Origin: Lachnospiraceae bacterium
GTDB taxonomy: Bacteria; Bacillota; Clostridia; Lachnospirales; Lachnospiraceae
Length of the DNA stretch: 64,000 bases
NCBI GenBank assembly: GCA_900199595.1
Contig: FZRB01000002.1
Location: 62,001-126,000 of the forward strand
Reading direction: 5' to 3'
Numbering within the stretch: the first letter of the stretch is position 1; the number at the start of each line of letters is the position of its first letter. Below the pieces are notes generated by a model. The model had not been told where the DNA came from. It ran no database searches and saw only the letters and a list, made by a program, of their open reading frames with translations. Position numbers and translations under genes: made by a program. Shown one piece after another: positions 47,270 through 62,522 of this stretch.

Positions 47270-48049
47270 TTAAACCTTTCCTATTGCTACGCTTGTATAA
47301 TATACATTTACTATAATCATTTCCGACGGCATGTCAACCGTTTTTCCCATACTCTTTAATACATGTGAACAGGCCTCAATCGTTGCTCCCGTCGTATATA
47401 TATCATCCACCAGAAGAATATTAATAACCATTCCGAAATCCAAAGAACCATTTAAATCTTTCAAACCTCTCATAAAGGCACATTTTTCATTCAGGACAAA
47501 TGCGTTCTTCAGATTACGTTCTCTGGCATCCGGACTCAGCTCCTTCTGAGGCGAAGTTTTTTCACTTCTGATGATAAGATCTGGTACAACCTGAATTCCC
47601 AGTTTATTCCCTACAGCTTCTGCAACCAGTTCAACCTGATTATATCCTCTTTTAAGATATTTCTTCTTATGAATAGGAACCGGAACCAGAAGATTAATTC
47701 CAAGATTCTTAAATCTCTTGCCAAATCGCTGTACTATCTCTTCGCCATAAAACAGAGCATATTCCTGTCTGTCTGAATATTTAAACATGGCTATACTGTC
47801 ACTTACCGGCGGTATATAATTAAACACCGGAAAGCCCTGGATATAATCCCTCTTTCTTCTGGAACAGTCCAGGCAGAACTCCACCTCCGGCGAAGCTATC
47901 TCTTTTCCGCATTTATAACAGCGGGGTTCCTTAACATATGGTCGAAGCGGTCTGCAGCTGTCACATATATATCCCCCGGAAGGTGTTACCACTTTGTCAC
48001 ATAATGCACAGCGGGGAGGAAATACAATATCCTTGATAACACTTTTCAC
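47270..48049 (-). CDS. comF: ComF-family phosphoribosyltransferase-like protein
   Basis: A 259-residue protein with two N-terminal Cys pairs forming a zinc finger (CALC...CDSC and CYKC...CLDC), then a PRTase-type domain with the PRPP loop ILLVDDIYTTGAT (about 213). ComF proteins are needed for DNA uptake in transformable bacteria, possibly for single-strand DNA processing. The start codon is GTG at 48049 with GGAGG inside the end of recD2, so translation is coupled. Confidence 0.9.
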   Translation of the reverse strand: MKSVIKDIVFPPRCALCDKVVTPSGGYICDSCRPLRPYVKEPRCYKCGKEIASPEVEFCLDCSRRKRDYIQGFPVFNYIPPVSDSIAMFKYSDRQEYALFYGEEIVQRFGKRFKNLGINLLVPVPIHKKKYLKRGYNQVELVAEAVGNKLGIQVVPDLIIRSEKTSPQKELSPDARERNLKNAFVLNEKCAFMRGLKDLNGSLDFGMVINILLVDDIYTTGATIEACSHVLKSMGKTVDMPSEMIIVNVYYTSVAIGKV

Positions 48050-48052
48050 AGA

Positions 48053-50386
48053 CTAATCCTCCATCATTCGAAATATATCCTCTTCAAAGAGTGCTCTCAT
48101 CTCATCCTTTTCATCTTCTTCTGCAAGCTCACATATCTTCTCAGTAAAACCCGTATATCTCTTCTGTTCCTGTATATTATCTATCATTTCATTTATCTTG
48201 CTCAGATTTCCTACTATCACAACCATTCTTCTGGCACGTGTAACCGCCGTGTACAAAAGATTTCTGCTAAGCAGCTTCATAGGGCCTGATAATATAGGAA
48301 TAACAACCGCAGGGTACTCAGAGCCCTGGGATTTATGTATTGTAATAGCAAATGCGTGCTCCAGTTCATCCAGCTGATTATATTCATATTCAGTCACTCT
48401 TCCATCATCAAAGGTGACTACAACCCTTTCATCAAAATCATTTATTTCAGATATTATTCCGATATCTCCATTAAAAATACCTATTCCCTGATCGATCAGC
48501 ACGTTACTCTTTTTATCCGAATATACTGACCATTCAAGCTTATAGTTATTTTTTATCTGCATAACCTTATCGCCTTCTCTAAGCACTATGTCCCCGTGCT
48601 CCTTTTCCCTTTTTCCGGGACCTGGAGGATTCAGCTTATTCTGAAGCTTTTTATTCATTTCAAGGGAGCCCAGTTCATAATGTCTGGTAGGCGTCAGAAC
48701 TTCCACCTCAAGAGGCGATATATTAAGATACTTGGGAAGATTCTCGGTAACCAGGTTACTGCACTCCTGGGCTATATCAAATGTGGTTCTTCTTGGAATA
48801 AAGAAGAAATCACTGGATTTATTATTTATCTCAAGGTGAATTCCATCCTTAATCTTATGAGCGTTCTCAACTATATTACTTGTATCGGACTGCCTGAAAA
48901 TCCTGGTGAGTACGGTTATAGGGAAGCATCCGCTTTCTATAATATCATGGAGTACATTTCCGGCACCTACTGAAGGTAGCTGATCCGTATCTCCAACCAT
49001 AACCAGTCTTGTTCCTGTAACGACAGCCTTTAAAAGCGCATAAAAAAGCCCTGCATCTACCATAGATGCTTCATCTATGATAAGTGCATCACATTCAAGA
49101 GGATTAGCTTCATTTCTCTGAAAATGAAGAGCTGACTTTTCATTGTCATCTCCGGGCTCTCCAGAGAATTCCAGCAGCCTGTGAATAGTCTGGGCATTAT
49201 AGCCGGTAGACTCTGTTATTCTTTTTGCCGCCCTTCCTGTCGGCGCCGCCAGAAGAACTACTTCTCCCTGATATTCAAAATACCTGATGATGGCATTGAT
49301 TATTGTTGTCTTTCCTGTTCCCGGACCACCTGTGATAACAGAAACTCCTGAACTGATTGCAAGCTTGACCGCATTTTTCTGAGAATCATCAAGCTCCATA
49401 TCTGTTTCTTCTTCAACATGCTTAATGGCTTCATCAACCTCTTTTTCATCAGGCTCATAGTCGAGTCGGAGCCCCAGAAGTCTTTTTGCACTATCCATTT
49501 CAAGGCGATAATTCCATCTGGTATAGACTCTTGGTTCTGTATCTGCTTCAGCTCCGTTATCAGATAACTCTCTGTTTTCAAGAACCACTCTGCCCTGAAG
49601 AAGCATATCATCAAGTATTTTATCAGTTCTTTCAAAAAAGACCTCCTGCTCTACATCAGGACTAAGAAGTTCATAAACCTTTGAAAAAAGCATATTACGG
49701 GGAACATACATATGTCCCAGCCCCATAGACTGATTCAGGACATAATAAACAGCCGATGCTATACGAAATTCCGAATCAGCGGATATTCCGGACTGCATGG
49801 CTATATTATCTACGGTTTTAAAACCTATTCCCGGCACAAAATCTGCTATCTTGTAAGGATTCTTACGAATAACATTATATATCTCATCGCCGAATTCAGC
49901 GTATATCTTCATGGAAAGCTTAATGCTTATCCCATACTTGGATAAAAACATTATTACATTTCTGTAGGAACGATTTTCACTGTATCTTACAGCTATTTTT
50001 TCGGCCATATTCATGGATATTCCACGAACCTCCGCCAGCCGCTCCGGTTCTTCATCTATGATCCTGAGCGTATCATCACCAAATTTTTTTACTATTCTCT
50101 TTGCCAGAGCCTCACCTATCCCCTTGATAATTCCGGATCCGAGAAATCTCGTAATTCCTTCGGTATCACTAGGCATGCTCAGTTCGGCTTCAGTCACCTT
50201 GAACTGAATATCATACTGGGGATGATGAACATATTCACCGTCAGCCTGGATATACATACCTTCAGCTGCTCCGGGAACATTTCCTACAAAGATTTCATCA
50301 CCTTCACTAGTTTCCACAACAAAAACAGCATAACCGTTTTCTTCGTTCTGATATATGATTTTATTAATGTATCCTTCCTGTACCAT
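48053..50386 (-). CDS. recD2: RecD2-like ATP-dependent DNA helicase
   Basis: Superfamily 1B 5'-3' helicase not associated with RecBC. The 777-residue protein has an OB-like and helix-hairpin-helix N-terminus (FLGSGIIKGIGEALAKRI, and a second GIGFKTVDNIA), Walker A GGPGTGKTT, Walker B IDEASMVD, QLPSVGAG, and the C-terminal IHKSQGSEYP and TRARRMV. The ATG at 50386 was chosen for GAGAGG nine bases upstream; further starts upstream are too close or lack an SD. It heads the recD2-comF-ddl group. Confidence 0.93.
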   Translation of the reverse strand: MVQEGYINKIIYQNEENGYAVFVVETSEGDEIFVGNVPGAAEGMYIQADGEYVHHPQYDIQFKVTEAELSMPSDTEGITRFLGSGIIKGIGEALAKRIVKKFGDDTLRIIDEEPERLAEVRGISMNMAEKIAVRYSENRSYRNVIMFLSKYGISIKLSMKIYAEFGDEIYNVIRKNPYKIADFVPGIGFKTVDNIAMQSGISADSEFRIASAVYYVLNQSMGLGHMYVPRNMLFSKVYELLSPDVEQEVFFERTDKILDDMLLQGRVVLENRELSDNGAEADTEPRVYTRWNYRLEMDSAKRLLGLRLDYEPDEKEVDEAIKHVEEETDMELDDSQKNAVKLAISSGVSVITGGPGTGKTTIINAIIRYFEYQGEVVLLAAPTGRAAKRITESTGYNAQTIHRLLEFSGEPGDDNEKSALHFQRNEANPLECDALIIDEASMVDAGLFYALLKAVVTGTRLVMVGDTDQLPSVGAGNVLHDIIESGCFPITVLTRIFRQSDTSNIVENAHKIKDGIHLEINNKSSDFFFIPRRTTFDIAQECSNLVTENLPKYLNISPLEVEVLTPTRHYELGSLEMNKKLQNKLNPPGPGKREKEHGDIVLREGDKVMQIKNNYKLEWSVYSDKKSNVLIDQGIGIFNGDIGIISEINDFDERVVVTFDDGRVTEYEYNQLDELEHAFAITIHKSQGSEYPAVVIPILSGPMKLLSRNLLYTAVTRARRMVVIVGNLSKINEMIDNIQEQKRYTGFTEKICELAEEDEKDEMRALFEEDIFRMMED

Positions 50387-50443: not shown

Positions 50444-50466
50444 AAAAAGGGGGATGTACATCCCCC
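50444..50466 (-). terminator. Rho-independent terminator after mreB
   Basis: On the minus strand GGGGGATGTACATCCCCC, a perfect palindrome, is followed by TTTTTATA. It starts two bases after the mreB stop codon. Confidence 0.9.
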
Positions 50467-50467
50467 T

Positions 50468-51457
50468 CTACTCCTGTGTTGACAGGTAATCTATATACTT
50501 TCCGGTTCCTACCGCAACCACTGACATCGGATCCTCCGCTGTCATCGTTGTTATTCCGGTTTTTTCTTCTATAAGCTGTTCCAGACCATGAAGCAGTGCC
50601 CCGCCTCCGGTAAGAACTATTCCTCTGTCAGCTATATCTGCTGCAAGTTCAGGAGGTGTTTTTTCAAGTACTGAATGAACTGCCTCCACAACCTGACCTG
50701 TTACGTCTCGGAGCGCTTCTTCTGTTTCATCAGAGGTTATCGTCACAGTCTTCGGAAGACCTGTAACCAGATCACGTCCACGCACATCCATTGATATATT
50801 CTCCGGACGTTTATAGCTGGTTCCTATATTTATTTTAACCTCTTCAGCAGTTCTGTCACCTATCAGAAGATTATGACGTTTTCTGACATATTTGATGATT
50901 GCATCATCGAAATCATTTCCGGCCACTTTAATGGATGAAGTAACTACAGGTCCACCCATTGAGATTACTGCTATATCAGTAGTACCACCACCGATATCAA
51001 CTATCATATTTCCAACCGGTCTTACAATATCTATTCCTGCTCCTATGGCAGCAGCAATAGGTTCCTCTACTATATTAACAAATCTGGCTCCGGCATTGTA
51101 AGTAGCTGTCTCCACAGCCCTCTTTTCAACCTCTGTGGCACCTGATGGAACACATATGGATATATGAGGTCTTCTGCCAAAGAAATTCCTTCCTATAGCC
51201 TTCTTGATAAAGTATTTAAGCATCTCCTCTGCTTTTGTATAATCAGATATAACCCCGTGCTTCAAAGGTCTGAGTGCTATAAGATTACCGGGAGTACGTC
51301 CCAGCATAAGCTTTGCTTCTTCGCCTATTTCAACTATTTTCTCAGAATCCTTGTCATAAGCAATTACAGTAGGTTCGCTTAAAACTATACCTCGACCTCT
51401 TATATAAATAAGTATATTCGAGGTACCAAGATCTATACCAACATCAAGATTAGCCAT
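50468..51457 (-). CDS. mreB: Rod shape-determining protein MreB
   Basis: Bacterial actin that guides peptidoglycan synthesis under the membrane. The 329-residue protein has the actin-fold phosphate loops GIDLGTSN (about 7) and DIGGGTTDIAV (about 155), the adenosine loop GGGALLHGL, and a typical membrane-near N-terminus MANLDVGIDLG. No mreC or mreD gene is next to it. It is the last gene in a three-gene group behind a PAS/GAF sensor and a coiled-coil protein, with only 20 bases between sensor stop and its start. It may be an extra MreB/Mbl paralogue. Confidence 0.93.
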   Translation of the reverse strand: MANLDVGIDLGTSNILIYIRGRGIVLSEPTVIAYDKDSEKIVEIGEEAKLMLGRTPGNLIALRPLKHGVISDYTKAEEMLKYFIKKAIGRNFFGRRPHISICVPSGATEVEKRAVETATYNAGARFVNIVEEPIAAAIGAGIDIVRPVGNMIVDIGGGTTDIAVISMGGPVVTSSIKVAGNDFDDAIIKYVRKRHNLLIGDRTAEEVKINIGTSYKRPENISMDVRGRDLVTGLPKTVTITSDETEEALRDVTGQVVEAVHSVLEKTPPELAADIADRGIVLTGGGALLHGLEQLIEEKTGITTMTAEDPMSVVAVGTGKYIDYLSTQE

Positions 51458-51477
51458 TATTTTTCCTCACTAAAATA

Positions 51478-52812
51478 TTAATTTTTTTTATTGCCAGCAG
51501 GCTCTAATATAACTATCGAAACCCTGTCATAGGTTCTCCACCTGTGAAAGCTTTCAGTTATATCGTATATGTCACCCAATACATCTACATATCTCTGATA
51601 CACAGTTACCCTTCTGGCCGTTTCCATCGATAATATATCTTCCGGATATTCGTCCTGCATAGGAACTATGAAACTGCTGTCTCTTCCGATTATTTCTTCT
51701 CCAAGTTTTTCTCTCAGAGAACTGTTTGCAAAAATAATCCTTCCATCCATGCTTCTGACGAGCATATAGTCAGTCAGAGCTTCAGCAACATCCTTTATCA
51801 TCAGCCATCCATCATCTATTTCCTGTTTCCGGACCTGAACCTCAAGATCTCTTGAAATGATCTCGGTTATCTGTTTGGCAAATGTAATCTCCGCTTCTGT
51901 CCAGACACGCTCTTTACTATTCTCAATAAATATCATTCTGCCGTTGTATTCACCCATAACATATACCGGGAATACCATAACTGCTCTGGCATTACCATTG
52001 AATACTTCGACACGCATCTGATTTGTCATTGAATGTTTATCTATAATAAGTCCATCTGTTCTTATCTGTGCAGCAATTTCCTGTGAATAGTGATCATGCT
52101 CCCATCCGAAGGATTTCTCGGCTTCTTCACATTTTCCACCCTTAGCCCAATAATCAATCAGAATCATCTTTGTAGGATTGGTTCTGTCGACAGTATAGTA
52201 AACTATATAGTCGACATCCATAATCTTTCCGACTTTTTCATATATGTCAGTAACTTTGCTTTTATCACCATTTATGATCACATCAAGAATTTCATTTACT
52301 ATTTCCTTGCACTGTCTTTCAAATTCAAGTTCTGTACGTATCTTCTTATCCTCATTAATGGTTATGGAGCCTGCATACAGTCTAGTTATTATATCGGACA
52401 GGCACTGTGCAACAGTATTCTGTTTATCAAATGATTTAAACAGCTTCTGATTCTGCGCCTTGTTATGTGCATACAAAATCCATGCAGCCACAAATCTGTT
52501 ATCAACAAATATAGGTGCCACAGATACTCTGCTGTCAGGATTGCCATCATCTATCTCAGAATACATGGCCTCTCCCGAAGCAATTATAAAATTAACAACT
52601 TTCTGATATGTCTCAAGATATCCGGGATCTGTCATTGTAACATAGAATTCACCCAGATAAGCGTTTGGACCTGATGGTTCAATAAGGATACGACCGTTTA
52701 TATCAAGCACAACAGAATAAAGTTCGCATGCCGAAGCAAAGCCATCTATCAATTGATCAACCTTGCATGACTTAAGAAACTCTGGAGTTATACTCTTGAT
52801 GTCGATATCCAT
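51478..52812 (-). CDS. PocR/GAF/PAS-like sensor protein without output domain
   Basis: A 444-residue cytoplasmic protein. Residues 1-150 look like a PocR-type ligand-sensing domain (CELYSVVLDINGRILIEP, then RVSVAPIFVDNRFVAAWIL). Residues 180-340 resemble a GAF domain (VMVFPVYVMGEYNGRMIFIEN, ending in FAKQITEIISRDLE). Residues 350-440 resemble a PAS domain (DYMLVRSMDGRIIFANSSLREKLG). No kinase, GGDEF, HTH or other output follows. These calls come from sequence feel, not a search. It lies between a coiled-coil protein and mreB with gaps of 15 and 20 bases, so it may act on them directly by binding. Confidence 0.75.
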   Translation of the reverse strand: MDIDIKSITPEFLKSCKVDQLIDGFASACELYSVVLDINGRILIEPSGPNAYLGEFYVTMTDPGYLETYQKVVNFIIASGEAMYSEIDDGNPDSRVSVAPIFVDNRFVAAWILYAHNKAQNQKLFKSFDKQNTVAQCLSDIITRLYAGSITINEDKKIRTELEFERQCKEIVNEILDVIINGDKSKVTDIYEKVGKIMDVDYIVYYTVDRTNPTKMILIDYWAKGGKCEEAEKSFGWEHDHYSQEIAAQIRTDGLIIDKHSMTNQMRVEVFNGNARAVMVFPVYVMGEYNGRMIFIENSKERVWTEAEITFAKQITEIISRDLEVQVRKQEIDDGWLMIKDVAEALTDYMLVRSMDGRIIFANSSLREKLGEEIIGRDSSFIVPMQDEYPEDILSMETARRVTVYQRYVDVLGDIYDITESFHRWRTYDRVSIVILEPAGNKKN

Positions 52813-52827
52813 ATCTTCCCCCTTGTA

Positions 52828-53757
52828 TTATTCTTCTTCAGCCGCCTCTTCCTTTGAAACTGTATCAGCCACTGATGAGTTCAGGTCTGAAAATGCGCTG
52901 TCAGTAAGCTTCTTTGTATCATTTACTGCAGTAGTAACATCCGTAAGTGCTGCCTGAAGCTGTGCCATGAAACCGCCGATGGAATCAAATTCTCTCTTAA
53001 CAAGGAATCTGTTCTGACGTATCTCTTCTCTGGTATCAGCCTTTGCCTTGTCACACTCTGCTATTGTGTCTTCCTTAAGTCTTGCACAAGCTGACTCTGT
53101 CTGTGCATTAAGGTTATTACATCTTTCCTCTGTCTCACGAGCAAGCTGACTGCATCTTGCTTCAGTTTCGCGTGTCAGGCTGTCAGTCTCTTCCTTAGTT
53201 CTTCTCTTAAGGCTTTCGCACTCAGCATAGGTAGTTTCCTTCTGTTCCTGACAGCTGCTCTGAGTCTGTGAAAGAAGTCTGTCACATTCTGACTCTGTAG
53301 CATTCTTCAGCTGCTCACATCTTGCTGTTGTTTCCTCCAGCATAGCCTTACACTGAGCTGTTGTCTCAGCAGTCTTTGCTTCACATTCCTCAGCAGTTTT
53401 CTGAGTAAGAGAATCTGCATTTTCTCTGGCTGCAAGAAGTGTTCTGGAAATGGATTCATATCTGGAAGCTGATTCGCTTTCTTTTGATTTATAAATCTCC
53501 AGTTCATTTCTGACTCTATCGAGTTCTGCTCTCATTTCCTCATTAACAGTAGTCAGCTCATCTATTGTACTCTTAGATTCCGTCATATTTGCTTCACGCA
53601 TCTGCTGAAGTCCTTTTACGGCCTCACTAAGCTTGGTAGCATCATCTCTGAGCTTATTTATCTCGTCCTCATATTTCTTCTGCATTTCAAGTACAAAAGT
53701 TTCTGTTGCGTTTTTATCATATCCACCAAAAGATACTGTTTTGATTTCTAATGCCAT
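52828..53757 (-). CDS. DivIVA-like coiled-coil protein with a cysteine hendecad ladder
   Basis: A 309-residue helical protein of unknown function. The N-terminus (about 9-30: SFGGYDKNATETFVLEMQ) resembles the DivIVA/GpsB membrane-binding segment. Residues 114-245 are an exact 11-residue repeat with consensus C-x2-L-x3-T-x3. Cysteines stand at 125, 136, 147, 158, 169, 180, 202, 213, 224 and 235, and Thr fills slot 191. The threonine seven residues after each slot is invariant. The C-terminus has a further helix and an acidic tail. The ATG at 53757 was chosen for AAAGGGG upstream. It is the first gene of the group with the sensor and mreB, suggesting a role in cell shape or polarity. Confidence 0.8.
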   Translation of the reverse strand: MALEIKTVSFGGYDKNATETFVLEMQKKYEDEINKLRDDATKLSEAVKGLQQMREANMTESKSTIDELTTVNEEMRAELDRVRNELEIYKSKESESASRYESISRTLLAARENADSLTQKTAEECEAKTAETTAQCKAMLEETTARCEQLKNATESECDRLLSQTQSSCQEQKETTYAECESLKRRTKEETDSLTRETEARCSQLARETEERCNNLNAQTESACARLKEDTIAECDKAKADTREEIRQNRFLVKREFDSIGGFMAQLQAALTDVTTAVNDTKKLTDSAFSDLNSSVADTVSKEEAAEEE

Positions 53758-53794: not shown

Positions 53795-53803
53795 AGTATA
53801 ACA
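53795..53803 (-). promoter_or_regulatory. Candidate extended -10 promoter of the coiled-coil/sensor/mreB group
   Basis: On the minus strand TGTTATACT, an extended -10 box, lies 38 bases upstream of the start at 53757. No good -35 is seen. Confidence 0.45.
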
Positions 53804-53847
53804 CATGACTGTATATTCTGCACTTAATTTTTTATGGAAAAACTTAA

Positions 53848-53871
53848 GCCCTCCACCTTTCGGAGGAGGGC
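53848..53871 (-). terminator. Rho-independent terminator after glmM
   Basis: On the minus strand GCCCTCC and GGAGGGC pair around a short loop, followed by TTAAGTTTTT. It separates the glm operon from the coiled-coil/sensor/mreB group. Confidence 0.85.
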
Positions 53872-53898: not shown

Positions 53899-55245
53899 TT
53901 ATGCCAGGTGACCCTTTTCTTCAATAACCTTGATTACCTGATCAACATACTTCTCACAGATTTCATCGCTTTCTGCCTCAACCATAACACGAATAACCGG
54001 CTCTGTTCCTGATTCTCTTACAAGGATACGTCCGGTATCTCCCAGCTCCTCAGCAACCTTAGCTACAGCAGCCTGAACATCCGGGTCATTCTGTGCATCG
54101 GGCTTACTCTTAACTCTTACATTTTTAAGAACCTGAGGGTAGTATACTACAGGCTCAGCAAGCTCACTCATAGACTTCTCTTTAGCAAGCATAACCTCCA
54201 TCATTTTAAGACTGGTAAGAATTCCGTCACCTGTTGTAGCATACTTGGAGAAGATAATATGACCGGACTGTTCACCACCTATACGGTTTCCTGTTTTAAC
54301 CATATTTTCATATACATATTTATCTCCGACACTGGTCTTGTCATACTCTATTCCGACCTTATCAAATGCTTTGTAAAGACCGAAATTACTCATAACAGTT
54401 GTGACAACCTTGTTGTTAATCAGCTTGCCACGTTCTTTCATATAAAGACCGTAAATGTACAGGATATGATCTCCGGTAATTATATTTCCCTTCTCATCTA
54501 CGCAGAGACATCTGTCGGCATCACCATCGTATGCAAAACCAACATCAAGTCCTTTCTCAAGCACGAATTTCTGAAGATGCTCGATATGTGTTGAACCGCA
54601 GTCTGTATTGATGTTACAGCCATCAGGGCTGTCATTCATGACATAGGTCTTGGCACCAAGCGCATCAAATACTGCTTTTGCAATCTGCCATGCTGCACCA
54701 TTGGCAACATCCAGACCAACTCTTTTATTTTTGAAGCTGTATTTACTCATGGATATAAGATATCCGATATAGCGGTTACGTCCGGCCACATAATCAACCG
54801 TACGTCCGATATCAGCTCTTTCGGCAATAGGTATCTCTATTTCACCATCAAGATACTTCTCAACCTCCAGAATGGTATCCTCATCCATCTTCTCGCCATT
54901 GCCATTAAGCAGCTTGATTCCATTATCATAAAATGGATTGTGAGAAGCAGAAATCATGATACCGCAGTCAAAATCATCAACTCTTGCGATATATGCAACT
55001 GAAGGTGTCGTTGTAACATGCATGATATAAGCATCCGCACCACTGGCCATAAGACCGGTACAAAGTGCATACTCAAACATATATGAGCTTCTTCTGGTAT
55101 CCTTACCGATAACTATCTTCGCCTTTTTGCCTTCCTTTGCACCATAGTACCAGCCAAGGAAACGTCCGATCTTAACTGCATGATCAAAGGTCAGATCCTT
55201 ATTAGCTTCTCCACGAAAACCATCGGTTCCGAAATATTTACCCAT
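53899..55245 (-). CDS. glmM: Phosphoglucosamine mutase
   Basis: Converts glucosamine 6-phosphate to glucosamine 1-phosphate. The 448-residue protein has GTDGFRGEAN near the start, the phosphoserine loop ISASHNPFYDNG (about 102), metal-binding DGDADRC (about 242), sugar-binding GEQSGHI, and RESGTEPVIRVM at the end. AAGGAGG lies in the end of the upstream gene. It is the last gene of the glmS-hexapeptide-glmM operon and ends before a terminator. Confidence 0.96.
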   Translation of the reverse strand: MGKYFGTDGFRGEANKDLTFDHAVKIGRFLGWYYGAKEGKKAKIVIGKDTRRSSYMFEYALCTGLMASGADAYIMHVTTTPSVAYIARVDDFDCGIMISASHNPFYDNGIKLLNGNGEKMDEDTILEVEKYLDGEIEIPIAERADIGRTVDYVAGRNRYIGYLISMSKYSFKNKRVGLDVANGAAWQIAKAVFDALGAKTYVMNDSPDGCNINTDCGSTHIEHLQKFVLEKGLDVGFAYDGDADRCLCVDEKGNIITGDHILYIYGLYMKERGKLINNKVVTTVMSNFGLYKAFDKVGIEYDKTSVGDKYVYENMVKTGNRIGGEQSGHIIFSKYATTGDGILTSLKMMEVMLAKEKSMSELAEPVVYYPQVLKNVRVKSKPDAQNDPDVQAAVAKVAEELGDTGRILVRESGTEPVIRVMVEAESDEICEKYVDQVIKVIEEKGHLA

Positions 55246-55908
55246 TTATTTATCCTCCTTGCTTATCACTACTCCACTATCCTTCCAGATGGAATTCTCA
55301 GGAACAACTCCTCTTACACATGAAGTAGGATATACATTTGAATGTCTTCCGATTACTGTACCGGGGTTGCATACAGCATTACAGCCAACCTCAACATAGT
55401 CGCCGAGCATGGCTCCAAACTTCTTAACTCCTGTTTCTATATTCTCAGTTCCGTTATGAACTACCACCAGCGCCTTATCACTCTTTACATTACTTGTAAT
55501 ACTTCCGGCACCCATATGGCTGAAATATCCGAGGATAGAATCCCCTACGTAATTATAATGCGGAGTCTGAACATGGTCAAAAAGGATTACGTTTTTCAGC
55601 TCCACACTATTACCTACTACGCAGTCAGCTCCCACAAGCGCTGACCCACGTATAAATGCACAGTGTCTGACTTCAGTACCCGGTCCTATGATACAGGGAG
55701 CTCCAAGGTAGGCTGAAGGAAATACTGTAGCTGTTTTATGTACCCATACATTTTCGGACACCTCTTCATAGTCGTCTCCAAGTGTAGGTCCCAACTGAAG
55801 TATAAAATCCTTTATTCCCTTAAGAGTCTCCCAGGGATAAGTAAACTGCGACAGATAATCCTTCGCTAGTGTATGTTCTAAATCGTAAAGATCTGTAATA
55901 GTATACAT
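55246..55908 (-). CDS. Hexapeptide-repeat protein like the GlmU C-terminal domain
   Basis: A 220-residue left-handed beta-helix protein with hexapeptide repeats (about 60-205: AYLGAPCIIGPGTEVRHCAFIRGSALVGADCVVG, shortened here to its start). The GNSVELKNVILFD and GDSILGYFSHMGAGSITSN stretches match the acetyltransferase half of GlmU, but the uridylyltransferase half is missing. Its place between glmS and glmM, touching glmM without a gap, suggests it N-acetylates glucosamine 1-phosphate. A separate uridylyltransferase would then be encoded elsewhere. Catalytic activity is inferred. Confidence 0.82.
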   Translation of the reverse strand: MYTITDLYDLEHTLAKDYLSQFTYPWETLKGIKDFILQLGPTLGDDYEEVSENVWVHKTATVFPSAYLGAPCIIGPGTEVRHCAFIRGSALVGADCVVGNSVELKNVILFDHVQTPHYNYVGDSILGYFSHMGAGSITSNVKSDKALVVVHNGTENIETGVKKFGAMLGDYVEVGCNAVCNPGTVIGRHSNVYPTSCVRGVVPENSIWKDSGVVISKEDK

Positions 55909-58386: not shown

Positions 58387-61300
58387 TTATTTGGTCTTAA
58401 ACTTCAGAGTCTTCTTGTTACCCTTCTTATCAGTTACAACCAGTTTATTATATTTACCCTTCTTCTTAAGGTACTTCTTGTAGGACTTAAGATTAACTGT
58501 AATAGTCTTCTTATTGGACTTTATCTTGATCTTCTTTCCATTAAGAGTAATCTTCTTGATCTTATCCTTATCCTTTACCTTAATCTTCTTAGTCTTCTTT
58601 ACAGTAGCCTTATTCTTGATGCTGAAGGTTGTCTTGTTATCCTTTGCTTTTGCAGGTGTAACTGTAGGTGTTGCTGCTGAAGGATCTTTTGAAGGTGATG
58701 CTGCAGGTGTTGTAGCTGCAGGTTCCTTTGAAGGTGATACTTCAGGTGTTACTGCTGAAGGTTCCTTTGTTGCTGTAGGATCTTTAGCCGGATCCTTTGT
58801 TGCTGTAGGTGTTGGATCCTTTGCAGGTTCCTTTGTTGCTGTAGGTGTTGGTGTTGCAATTTCTTCAGGCTTATCTGTTTCTACAAGAACAAAGTTGTCA
58901 AGATATACATGATGAACATCTGTTATTCTGTTACCATCAAATGTACCAAGACTTACACTGAGAAGCGAATTAGGATCAGTATCCTTTGTCATCTGGAAGA
59001 CAAGTTCAAATGAATTCCAGTCTTTTGTAAGTTCAATATTATTATCTCCTGAATAAACATCCCAGTTATCATCAGCTGAACCATCTCTCTGCATTACAAC
59101 ACTTATTGTACGATCAATAGTTGCCTTGGCATCAAATGTAAGCTTATAATACTTATCCTTCTCAAGATTTACACCAGGCTGCTTAAGCTGTATATTCCAA
59201 TCTGCTTTACCAGTATCCTTAATATCTGCATCAAACGCTGTATCATTTCCGGCCTTCTGAGAATCAACTCCGAAGGTTGCGTCACCCTCTTCATATACGC
59301 CATACTCATATCCTGCAAGACCTGAATTAAATGAACCATTCTTGATCATTGCTGATTCCTGGAATACTACATTATCCAGATAATATGTTCCGGCCTTTGT
59401 GAATTCAAATGAAACATTTGCTTTTTCTCTATCAATAGTATCTTCAACACTTATATCATATGTGAATGTAGTTTTATTTGCTGTAAGCTCAGGATTTACC
59501 TTAGTACCTGAGAAATTAGCTGTCATTCCGTCCTTGTCTCCATCTGTTGTATATGCATCAAAGCTGAATTCATAGTCGCCCTTTGCAACAGGAGCAAGCT
59601 CGCTCTGTGAAACTACTACAGGATTAGCTTCAGAAGCACCCTCAGGAACTTCAACTCTTACTCTGAGTTCTCTTGTTCTATCACCACCGGCAAGTGTATT
59701 TGTAACTGATACATTTGCCTTATCATCATCTGCTACTTCCCAGTAACCAAGACGTCCCTCGCCCTGATCAAAGGAACCATTATATACATAGTTACCATCA
59801 GCTGCTACTGATTTTTCGAATACTTCTTCTATTTCCTCACCTGATTTATGAATCAATTTGATGTTGGAAATATGTACAGCTGCTGTTGAATCCTGTTTTC
59901 CAAGATTGAACTCCAGACTACCATTTGCATCAGTTTTCTCAGCCATTGTGAATGTCTGGGTAAATGTCTGCTTCTCTGTTGTTAATTGGATCTTAGTATC
60001 ATTAAAGTATCTCTGCCATCCGTGATCCGGACCTTCGATATCTACTACTATAGTTCTGTCTTCATCTGCATAAGCATCAAACTGAAGTTCATATTCCCAG
60101 CCCTTAAACATAGGAATTCCTGTCTGCTTCAGCTGAACACTGTGAGTCTGTGATCCGGCAACTGTCGGTGTTATTGTTATTTCGTTATTCTCTATATTAT
60201 GAGTAGTTGAATCAAGACAATCCGGCTCGAGGTGAAGTTCAAAATTATCACCCTCTGCATCCATTGCTTTAAGTTCCTTTGAGAAATCGCCATTTACTAC
60301 ATAGTTTCCATTTTCATCAGCTTCTCTATAGACAACTTCATGAACAGGTGCCTCAGCCTTTTCTTCCATCTCTGCGTAAACTTCAGGATTCTTCTGATAA
60401 ACACGAACATAATCTATATCATATGACTGATTAGCCATGTCATCTACTACATCCTGATCCGGATATCCAACCCAGCTTCCACCTACTGCAAGGTTAAGAA
60501 TTACATAGAACTGCTGGTCAAATGGTGCAGGATATGAAAGTCTGCTTTCATCGTTCTTTCCTGTATACCAGTCATTAGTAGAACCAACTTCTTTTCCATC
60601 AACATACCATGTGATAAGTCCCGGCTCCCAGTCAAGACCGTATACATGAAATTCACTGCTGAAATCACCGGTCTCAAGAACTTTCTTAACCTGATTTTCT
60701 CTATGACCTGAACCTGCATCATATCCATAATGAATAGTATGATAGGACTGCTTTGTATTCTGTCCCATTACTTCCATGATATCTACTTCACCGCACTTAG
60801 GCCACTGTCCATAGTTTCCTTCATCTGTAGCCATAAGCCAGAATGCAGGAAGATATCCCTGTCCTTCAGGAACTCTTGCTTTTGCTTCAAAATAACCATA
60901 TGTGAAGTCGCGCTTGCCCTGAGTATTTACACGACCAGAAGTATAGTTATAAGCCTTCTTTACATCAACAGTTCCTTCAATTTCTGAAAGGTCTAAGAGT
61001 GATATATCAGAAAGAGTTACTTCTGCAGCTCCATTTTCCTCATCAAATCCGTCTATTTTTCCAAAATTAATCTGAAGAGCCATTGTATCTGTGGATGCCT
61101 TATCTGTTCCTACAGAAATAGCAATTTCTATCTCTTCTTCTTCTGTTCCAATAACCTTCTTATCTCCTCCATACCATGCATAACTGTTCTTTGGATCAAG
61201 AAGACTTACCTCTACAGCCCTATTAGCACTAGATTTAGCTTTAAACTTAAGGCTGTATTCGTGACCAGCAGTTATAGATAAATTATCCTGCTGAAGCTGT

Positions 61301-62268
61301 ATGGCATAATTCTTTTCTCCTGAATTAACAATCTTTATTTCTGCTTTTCCATCTTTAAATTCAACTGAACCTTCTGAACCTTCAGCTCCTGCTGAACCAT
61401 TCCAGTTTGAATCAAAGCCTTCACCTTTAAGTATTTCCTTGTATTTCACTTCCTGTGAAGCTGTAAGATCAATAAGCTCAATATCCGAGAGAACAACCTC
61501 TGCAGCTCCATTTTCTTCATCAAATCCATCTATTTTTCCAAAATTGATCTGAAGAGCCATAGTATCTGAAGATGCCTTATCTGTTCCTACAGAAATACCA
61601 ATTTCTATCTCTTCTTCTTCTGTTCCGATAACCTTCTTATCTCCCCCATACCATGCATAACTATTTTGAGGATCAAGAAGACTTACCTCTACAGCTCTTT
61701 TAGCACTAGATTTAGCTTTAAACTTAAGACTGTATTCATGACCGGATGTTATAGATATATCATCCTGCTGGAGCTGTATAGCATAATTCTTTTCACCTGA
61801 ATTAACAATCTTTACCTCTGCTTTACCATCTTTAAATTCAACTGAACCTTCTGAGCCTTCAGCCCCTGCTGAACCTTTCCAGTTTGAATCAAAGCCTTCT
61901 CCCTTAAGCACATTTCCAGTTGAAGCTGCAGCTTCTTCTGCATCTTCTTTTTTCTCTGCCTTAGGTATAAGACTAAGCTTACCATCCTTAACTTCAATAT
62001 TTCCTTCGTCCAGCTTTGTATAACGCTGAAGTTCTGCGTTAACCCAGCCCGGTTCGTGAAGCTCAACATTCCAGTCCTCAGTATTAAGTGTGTCTCCTTC
62101 GAATTCATCATTCCAAACGAGAGAGTACTGTTCATAATCCTTTACATAAGCCGGAGCTGTCTCTTCTGCGCTTACTTCTGAAACCGGTCCGATGAACGGA
62201 ACAGCAAGCGCAAAGCACAGTGAAAGTGCAACTGCTCTTTTGATACTCTTGTTACTTCTGAGTCTCAT
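58387..62268 (-). CDS. Secreted multimodular GH16 endo-glucanase, catalytic domain interrupted by two CBMs
   Basis: Predicted extracellular beta-1,3(1,4)-glucanase, 1293 residues. Signal peptide about 1-34. The GH16 domain starts at about 46 (YSLVWNDEFEG) but is broken after about 105. Two CBM_4_9-like modules follow (about 119-270 and 279-430, period 159 residues), nearly identical. GH16 resumes at about 438-628 with catalytic E494 and E499 (GEVDIMEVMG). Three more diverged CBM-like modules are at about 655-810, 825-970 and 975-1130. A Pro/Thr linker (about 1138-1205) leads to a lysine-rich C-terminal domain. The start at 62268 has AAAGGAGAT upstream. Divergent from an AraC-type regulator. 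Confidence 0.9.
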   Translation of the reverse strand: MRLRSNKSIKRAVALSLCFALAVPFIGPVSEVSAEETAPAYVKDYEQYSLVWNDEFEGDTLNTEDWNVELHEPGWVNAELQRYTKLDEGNIEVKDGKLSLIPKAEKKEDAEEAAASTGNVLKGEGFDSNWKGSAGAEGSEGSVEFKDGKAEVKIVNSGEKNYAIQLQQDDISITSGHEYSLKFKAKSSAKRAVEVSLLDPQNSYAWYGGDKKVIGTEEEEIEIGISVGTDKASSDTMALQINFGKIDGFDEENGAAEVVLSDIELIDLTASQEVKYKEILKGEGFDSNWNGSAGAEGSEGSVEFKDGKAEIKIVNSGEKNYAIQLQQDNLSITAGHEYSLKFKAKSSANRAVEVSLLDPKNSYAWYGGDKKVIGTEEEEIEIAISVGTDKASTDTMALQINFGKIDGFDEENGAAEVTLSDISLLDLSEIEGTVDVKKAYNYTSGRVNTQGKRDFTYGYFEAKARVPEGQGYLPAFWLMATDEGNYGQWPKCGEVDIMEVMGQNTKQSYHTIHYGYDAGSGHRENQVKKVLETGDFSSEFHVYGLDWEPGLITWYVDGKEVGSTNDWYTGKNDESRLSYPAPFDQQFYVILNLAVGGSWVGYPDQDVVDDMANQSYDIDYVRVYQKNPEVYAEMEEKAEAPVHEVVYREADENGNYVVNGDFSKELKAMDAEGDNFELHLEPDCLDSTTHNIENNEITITPTVAGSQTHSVQLKQTGIPMFKGWEYELQFDAYADEDRTIVVDIEGPDHGWQRYFNDTKIQLTTEKQTFTQTFTMAEKTDANGSLEFNLGKQDSTAAVHISNIKLIHKSGEEIEEVFEKSVAADGNYVYNGSFDQGEGRLGYWEVADDDKANVSVTNTLAGGDRTRELRVRVEVPEGASEANPVVVSQSELAPVAKGDYEFSFDAYTTDGDKDGMTANFSGTKVNPELTANKTTFTYDISVEDTIDREKANVSFEFTKAGTYYLDNVVFQESAMIKNGSFNSGLAGYEYGVYEEGDATFGVDSQKAGNDTAFDADIKDTGKADWNIQLKQPGVNLEKDKYYKLTFDAKATIDRTISVVMQRDGSADDNWDVYSGDNNIELTKDWNSFELVFQMTKDTDPNSLLSVSLGTFDGNRITDVHHVYLDNFVLVETDKPEEIATPTPTATKEPAKDPTPTATKDPAKDPTATKEPSAVTPEVSPSKEPAATTPAASPSKDPSAATPTVTPAKAKDNKTTFSIKNKATVKKTKKIKVKDKDKIKKITLNGKKIKIKSNKKTITVNLKSYKKYLKKKGKYNKLVVTDKKGNKKTLKFKTK
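60988..61431 (-). repeat. CBM-coding repeat, copy 2
   Basis: Codes for about residues 280-427 of the GH16 protein. Very similar at base and protein level to 61465-61908; only scattered substitutions are seen, such as N for K after DSNW. Confidence 0.85.
61465..61908 (-). repeat. CBM-coding repeat, copy 1
   Basis: Codes for about residues 121-268 of the GH16 protein, offset by 477 bp from copy 2. High similarity points to a recent tandem duplication. Confidence 0.85.
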
Positions 62269-62522
62269 AAAAATCTCCTTTCTTATCTGAGCACATGCCA
62301 TATGGCATAAATTAATTGGTAAATTTGCTTTAAAATCCATTTAAAGCGCCGCGATTTTTATATAAGTTTACTCATGGAGAAAGTTAAAATATATCTTTTT
62401 CATTTCACTTTTGTCGTTTTTATGTTATCATTAATATCGATAATCAAAACATTTCAGACAAAATATCAATTTTTTTACTTTTATCCAAATAAACTGTTAT
62501 ACACTGAATCGGAGAATTATTT

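Follow-up and report, generated by a model that had tools for sequence, protein, structure and literature searches.

A coil-sensor-MreB gene unit with a cysteine hendecad in Lachnospiraceae, a candidate lineage-specific morphogenetic operon

FilP and Scy of Streptomyces, members of the DivIVA-like superfamily, combine an N-terminal motif (GYDxxEVD, in full GY[DN]xx[QE]V[DN]) with a long coiled coil that grows by 11-residue units (hendecads) in a cytoskeletal context. FilP is reported there only from Actinobacteria and Scy only from Streptomycetales, their hendecad core is alanine-rich, and hendecad dimers require a small side chain at the core position facing the axis; uncharacterized Firmicute clusters of the DivIVA group are mentioned in the same study (PMC9858780). 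In Lachnospiraceae, an operon of the order mbl-flgF-flgG-flgJ has been published, the significance of which is unknown according to its authors (PMC3720852). MopJ of Caulobacter is an alphaproteobacterial, polarized single-domain PAS protein without an output domain that acts in cell-cycle control (PMC4432633), and RgsP of Rhizobiales is a seven-transmembrane receptor with a GGDEF link that is tied to localized wall growth (PMC6107284). Here we describe a unit of three genes, encoding a DivIVA-like coiled-coil protein (the coil), a sensor without an output domain and MreB, on a 64,000-nucleotide stretch of a Lachnospiraceae bacterium (contig FZRB01000002.1, positions 62,001 to 126,000; hereafter the window), whose genome (G000) comprises 3.49 Mb on 47 contigs and is 100% complete. 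We favor, with confidence a little short of even, the reading that these genes form a lineage-specific morphogenetic operon in which the sensor, lacking an output domain, connects MreB with a DivIVA-like scaffold.

Each part of this unit is of a known kind, and what is new is the unit itself and a ladder of cysteines in the coil; we did not find either described in the open-licence literature, although such an absence is weak evidence. The coil resembles FilP and Scy in a putative diverged DivIVA-like motif at its N-terminus, its long hendecad coiled coil, its growth by 11-residue units and its cytoskeletal context, but it comes from Lachnospiraceae, has a core of Thr, Cys and Leu rather than alanine, and is fixed beside the sensor gene and mreB, whereas MreB is not mentioned in the main text of PMC9858780. 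The coil family may fall among the uncharacterized Firmicute clusters. The MreB locus is that of the published mbl operon, for which the cited part of the report describes no coil or sensor upstream; here both are present, and in the genus the locus lacks flgF-flgG. The sensor agrees with PocR-GAF-PAS-GGDEF-EAL proteins of the family (such as L015 and L019) in the identity and sequence of its three sensory domains, but it lacks GGDEF and EAL, adjoins mreB and falls in a separate tree group. It recalls MopJ in having a PAS-like domain and no output, and RgsP in the role that we propose for it, although no transmembrane part was seen in the sensor and the enzyme part is missing. We know of no MreB or DivIVA-like operon partner for MopJ.

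The layout proposed in an earlier sequence-only reading of this DNA was borne out in coordinates, strand and order, with the three genes set close together on the minus strand as coil-sensor-MreB and separated by gaps of 15 bases (coil/sensor) and 20 bases (sensor/MreB) (Table 1). That reading stood or fell with the conservation of the neighborhood beyond one strain, and the unit is kept far beyond it. Within the genus, the sensor and MreB were each matched in 61/61 genomes and the coil in 58/61, and each of the three genes was matched in 31 of 31 genomes with a completeness of 90% or higher and a contamination no greater than 5%. The sensor lies directly before MreB in 59/61 genomes and the coil before the sensor in 58/61, with adjacency taken from match ends (up to 300 bases for sensor-MreB and up to 1200 for coil-sensor, given that the sensor match may begin after an N-terminal PAS). 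Four of the five exceptional genomes have a match beside a contig end, and G280 is unexplained. Among named loci, the three genes share strand and order in 28/31, the other three being cut by a contig end (two without the coil, one without MreB). The host records carry the labels Lachnospiraceae, Eubacterium, Clostridiales or Clostridia, and many come from rumen or other ruminant-gut metagenomes; the isolates are AC2031 and NE2001.

The same pattern was seen in a family sample of 250 genomes, almost one per genus, in which the sensor query matched 29 genomes and lay before MreB in 10 of them (G000, G160, G040, G070, G106, G129, G131, G180, G188 and G016). The complete coil-sensor-MreB order is present in 8/250 and sensor-MreB only in 2 (G131, G016). 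A coil profile at E values up to 1e-6 matched 12/250 genomes, made up of 8 strong matches and 4 weak generic coiled coils; all 8 strong matches lie directly before the sensor (split by a contig break in G040), and none lies away from the pair. No sensor or coil frame was found at E up to 1e-3 in 53 of 60 family MreB neighborhoods, some of which (L135, L137 and L144) have little upstream sequence, the other 7 having been picked as sensor-bearing, nor in 19 MreB neighborhoods from other families of the order. Coil and sensor together were seen upstream of MreB only in this lineage, and the sensor alone also in G016. At the G016 locus (L244), the sensor-MreB pair is divergent from a spoIIID-like gene, and the sensor seemingly has no C-terminal PAS.

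Profile comparison suggests that the sensor is the PocR-GAF-PAS input half of the cyclic di-GMP (c-di-GMP) GGDEF-EAL family without the enzyme. Alignment of the sensor to the PocR-GAF-PAS-GGDEF-EAL family with hhalign gave a probability of 99.85 and an E value of 1.2e-30 over 415 columns, and the match stops at template column 449/890, before GGDEF. The Pfam matches of the window sensor itself (PAS, PocR, GAF, SpoVT_C and DUF3512) are all weak and under the curated cut-offs (for PAS_9, 19.3 bits against 27), but among 30 sensor members PocR was matched by 26 and PAS_9 by 19, both at E up to 0.1. The GAF region has the expected fold, the alpha/beta elements of the structure model fit a PAS domain in the C-terminal region, and the model predicts long inter-domain helices, as in dimeric sensors. 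The earlier description of a sensor with no output of its own is thus supported: Pfam, NCBIfam and the structure model revealed no output domain in the window sensor, which ends after the PAS-like domain, and a Pfam scan of the 30 members returned sensory-type matches plus scattered chance matches and no output domain. The longer homologs examined gain N-terminal PAS-like sequence instead. We considered a hidden output domain, and none of these approaches revealed one.

An unlikely but serious alternative is that the sensor stays in c-di-GMP signaling, its PAS/GAF helices pairing with intact GGDEF proteins, and that the operon serves co-expression only, with no action on MreB. The homology to GGDEF-EAL input modules over nearly the whole length, the long predicted helices and the 42 GGDEF domain matches in the same genome (some several per protein) are all consistent with this. 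The MreB-linked sensors, however, are one group apart: in a tree of 30 rows, 15 of them, G016 included, split from 15 GGDEF-EAL-type rows with support of 100/98, long branches being flagged and 4 of 19 GGDEF-type or other rows (L029, L030, L032 and L033) having been dropped for their short shared core. The placement just before MreB in 59/61 species also argues against it, as does the finding of no second relative of the sensor in its own genome at E up to 0.001. The 19 family sensor-type matches of the other kind (L015-L033) have no MreB frame within their 1.5-kb flanks, and 17 carry GGDEF/EAL motifs, L027 and L032 having none by a simple motif test. The 42 GGDEF matches also indicate a rich c-di-GMP network in this organism.

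The third gene is MreB by every profile used, with 452.6 bits to PF06723 (cut-off, 27), 444 to TIGR00904 (365.75) and 460.5 to NF010539 (293). In the window, recD2 and comF lie downstream, as in an mbl-type neighborhood, and spoIIID is not upstream. Among the 60 family MreB loci, recD2 is downstream in 57, flgF-flgG downstream in 40 and spoIIID upstream in 9; among 19 loci from other families of the order, flgF-flgG is downstream in 15 and spoIIID upstream in 7, the spoIIID counts covering the fetched stretch, which in family loci reaches at most 6.5 kb. Given that this neighborhood is shared in the family and the order, the MreB locus is old, and the window gene is the mbl-type member of an older mbl-(flgF-flgG)-recD2 block. 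The premise of the sequence-only reading that mreC and mreD are the usual followers of mreB fails here, since the gene sits in the mbl-(flgF-flgG)-recD2 locus of Lachnospiraceae (PMC3720852). In an MreB tree of 89 rows (genus rows cut down to 9, short or interrupted matches dropped and the window MreB absent), the rows from the genus and from the other triad genomes cluster together as a group of 15 (86/80), which adjoins the coil-less G131 and two genera without the sensor; G016 lies elsewhere.

In a second alternative, distinctly unlikely in our view, the unit positions flagella or polar machinery through an MreB gene that ancestrally stood before flgF-flgG. The 40 family loci with flgF-flgG after MreB include four that bear the sensor (L131-L134), and the published mbl-flgF-flgG-flgJ order (PMC3720852) points the same way. 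But flgF-flgG is not at the locus in the genus (0/30) or in three other genera (L128-L130), where recD2 follows and coil-sensor-MreB is retained.

Searching the own genome with MreB returned the gene itself, a second MreB that is 43% identical and, inside longer frames, two weak matches. The second MreB (G000:C19, L207, 4396-8825) directly follows a 1141-amino-acid, highly charged coiled-coil protein whose C-terminus reads as ATPase-like; pflB-like and activase-like genes come next, and mreC and mreD are absent in the 13 kb read (names by reading). A radC-mreC-mreD-mrdA-rodA cluster without mreB (G000:C10, L242, about 9.5-15.5 kb) has sepF and a canonical divIVA nearby (other names by reading of the open reading frames); both MreB genes of the genome lie elsewhere.

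The cysteine ladder of the coil, noticed on the first reading, proved to be real. In the window coil, 10/10 Cys share one residue class modulo 11, which happened in 0 of 200,000 random placements, and the 33 coils compared, of which some are near-identical, contain 290 Cys-Cys spacings, 244 of them of 11 residues and 37 of 22. Mean column identity by register in 28 sequences was 0.96 for Thr, 0.96 for Cys, 0.83 for Leu and 0.60-0.79 for the others, and several alignment gaps between orthologs measure exactly 11 residues. Leu, Thr and Cys line up on an 11/3 helical wheel as a 66-degree stripe with Thr central, such that Thr would occupy the axis-facing core position and Cys would lie opposite Cys in a parallel dimer. 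The 11-residue Cys register places the coil with the hendecad rods of FilP and Scy, but its Thr/Cys/Leu core is not alanine-rich. Recent DNA duplication was rejected as the source of the ladder, with no row from Tandem Repeats Finder and 33-61% identity between neighboring 33-base units. AlphaFold 2 (AF2) predicted the single chain to be almost wholly helical (helices 15-188 and 192-288; mean predicted local distance difference test score, 84.9), with a break at residues 189-191, which is the one ladder rung without Cys.

A ladder of this kind could also mean that the coil serves chiefly in redox or metal handling, either as a thiol store or as a metal-binding rod, with MreB and the sensor as stress-response clients. 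The ten evenly spaced, strongly conserved Cys in an organism presumed from its family to be an anaerobe would suit such a role, and so would the AF2 break, around which the other rungs could pair as a hairpin; the hairpin fold of the single-chain model may be an artefact. We judge this reading very unlikely.

The description of the coil as DivIVA-like held up through its relatives and less well in the window copy. An ortholog from another genus (G129) carries GYDKKEVD, an exact fit to the DivIVA-like motif, the remaining orthologs listed have intermediate forms that do not fit, and the GYDKNATE of the window coil misses GY[DN]xx[QE]V[DN]. All 28 aligned coils matched Pfam DivIVA at E up to 0.1 (best, 3.9e-9), and the coil profile matched the solved DivIVA N-terminus 2wuj over residues 7-45 at E 0.038. 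We therefore regard the coil N-terminus as a putative diverged DivIVA-like motif, supported through relatives and weak in the window copy.

A conserved candidate promoter motif, RTGCA-N15-TGNTATAMT, precedes the coil gene, the extended -10 being present in 32 of 35 upstreams (the window, 29 genus loci and 5 from other genera, some of them near-duplicates) and RTGCA standing at the same distance in 25 of these. The form RTGCA-N18-TATAMT has one match in the window, which is weak alone given an expectation of 0.28 and at least one match in 27/100 shuffles; it was matched in 50/262 loci, and those compared by position precede the coil gene, apart from one of the two matches in L217 and a single match in L242. 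A wider regulon was considered and dropped, given the single match in the window and the placement of the compared matches before the coil. Separate promoters would have spoken against the unit; the conserved motif before the coil and the sensor-MreB gap of less than 50 bases in 27/28 genus loci would fit shared transcription, and a promoter within a gene may still exist. The hairpins claimed as terminators on both sides of the unit were recovered, although the scan is weak by itself (12 in 10 kb versus 5.7 in shuffles), and a hairpin-plus-T site lies 3' of mreB in 14/28 genus loci scanned, a count without a shuffled control.

Several observations weigh against the morphogenetic operon. Sensor identity in the genus is 27-73%, whereas that of the best MreB is 75-98%, a fast divergence unlike that of a tight scaffold partner. 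Two coils, each with 5 Cys, lack a continuous ladder (spacings of 122, 99, 33 and 21 in G188, and of 206, 11, 22 and 21 in G106), and in the G188 alignment Ser predominates in the Cys register and Ala in the Thr register. The window coil scores 21.5 bits against Pfam DivIVA, below the cut-off of 28 (E 2.5e-4); a DivIVA profile search of its own genome listed two other genes and not the coil, and hhalign of the coil against those two proteins gave probabilities of only 61 and 29. No coil was found in G131 and G016, where sensor-MreB is kept. In relatives, 26 coil-sensor gaps reach 30 bases, and 13 of them contain a terminator-like hairpin, versus 0.8 expected from shuffles (2 of 28 gaps were shorter and excluded, and some loci are near-duplicates); the loci are L211, L213, L214, L217, L226, L228, L230-L233, L235, L236 and L238. 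Given these hairpins, for which the 15-base gap of the window has no room, those relatives may produce the coil at a level different from that of sensor-MreB, which loosens strict co-expression. Wall-precursor genes are neighbors in the genus (glmS upstream in 20/30 loci, glmM in 13/30, and ddl downstream in 21/30), but this context is genus-only, with glmM upstream in 0/60 and glmS in 1/60 family loci over a reach of at most 6.5 kb. Finally, much of the conservation of the unit is shared descent within one MreB clade. Hitch-hiking, in which an inherited gene order is fixed with no functional link, has the least probability of all in our estimation, given that the single clade (86/80) explains part of the conservation by ancestry but the unit is kept over 7 genera despite large sensor sequence change, every strong coil match is linked to a sensor, the order held while gap lengths, flanking genes and the N-terminal PAS varied, and the sensor of G016 groups with the MreB-linked ones although its MreB lies elsewhere in the tree, as if the pair had moved together or survived losses.

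For the morphogenetic operon, we propose that the sensor governs shape or wall growth according to a ligand or the redox state. The coil would form dimeric rods that gather at curved or polar membrane, given that DivIVA-like and FilP-like proteins do so; the rod would mark the place, and MreB would direct wall synthesis. Since the sensor has no recognizable catalytic or DNA-binding end, its report must pass by contact, and it would bind the coil, MreB or both, protein-protein contact being the only output left to it. With a filament protein and a rod that starts like a polar protein as its constant neighbors, an adaptor is the economical reading. A small molecule bound by the PocR, GAF or PAS domain would alter the contacts of the sensor and so steer the place or amount of MreB-guided wall synthesis, and the in-register Cys could join neighboring rods through cross-links or bound metal, so that the scaffold would respond to redox state or metal. 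A bolder version, which we consider rather improbable, is a small-molecule-to-actin switch: the input half of a c-di-GMP receptor, stripped of its enzyme, would engage or release MreB filaments and a DivIVA-like rod like a clutch under the control of a ligand, and redox or metal would switch the cysteine ladder of that rod, hinged at the Cys-less rung, from folded to zipped and back.

The unit is flanked upstream by glmM, a GlmU-like acetyltransferase half (left-handed beta-helix) and glmS, the last named from position and reading, and downstream by recD2, a ComF-like gene and ddl (Table 1). The protein between glmS and glmM (window 55246-55908) is a 220-amino-acid left-handed beta-helix that resembles the GlmU acetyltransferase half only. 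Farther upstream (58387-62340), a 1317-amino-acid protein reads as secreted and glucanase-like, with repeated carbohydrate-binding-like modules and a Thr/Pro-rich tail.

Table 1. Features of the coil-sensor-MreB locus in window coordinates (aa, amino acids; ORF, open reading frame)
Feature	Position	Strand	Basis
Coil gene, 309-aa DivIVA-like coiled-coil protein	52828..53757	-	ORF, Pfam, model
Putative diverged DivIVA-like motif GYDKNATE, coil residues 12-19	53701..53724	-	coil alignment, published motif
Hendecad cysteine ladder, ten Cys, coil residues 125-235, unit T-x3-C-x2-L-x3	53035..53397	-	spacing and register statistics
Output-less sensor gene, 444 aa (PocR-like, GAF, PAS)	51478..52812	-	ORF, profiles, model
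Sensor domain 1, PocR-like, residues 10-115	52468..52785	-	structure model; PocR profile in relatives
Sensor GAF domain, residues 184-297	51922..52263	-	
Sensor C-terminal PAS-like domain, last in protein, residues 349-438	51499..51768	-	Pfam, model
MreB (mbl-type) gene, 329 aa	50468..51457	-	ORF, profiles, neighborhood
Conserved candidate promoter motif of unit: GTGCA, 15 bases, extended -10 TGTTATACT	53795..53823	-	motif comparison of upstreams
Terminator-like hairpin after glmM, upstream boundary of unit	53849..53867	-	hairpin scan
Terminator-like hairpin after mreB, downstream boundary of unit	50450..50466	-	hairpin scan
glmM, cell-wall precursor gene, upstream (context)	53899..55245	-	profiles, neighborhoods
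recD2 helicase, downstream neighbor (context, outside unit)	48053..50386	-	profiles, family neighborhoods
comF-like gene (context)	47270..48049	-	profiles, neighborhoods

In summary, the coil looks like a Lachnospiraceae DivIVA-like protein that acquired a hendecad rod, in parallel to FilP and Scy in Actinobacteria. An enzyme-less ligand-sensor module beside mreB, across a genus and beyond, makes a link from metabolism to the MreB machinery testable with three genes. The make-up of the unit, which is kept in a group of mostly rumen bacteria, suggests an undescribed tuning of cell shape to a chemical signal.

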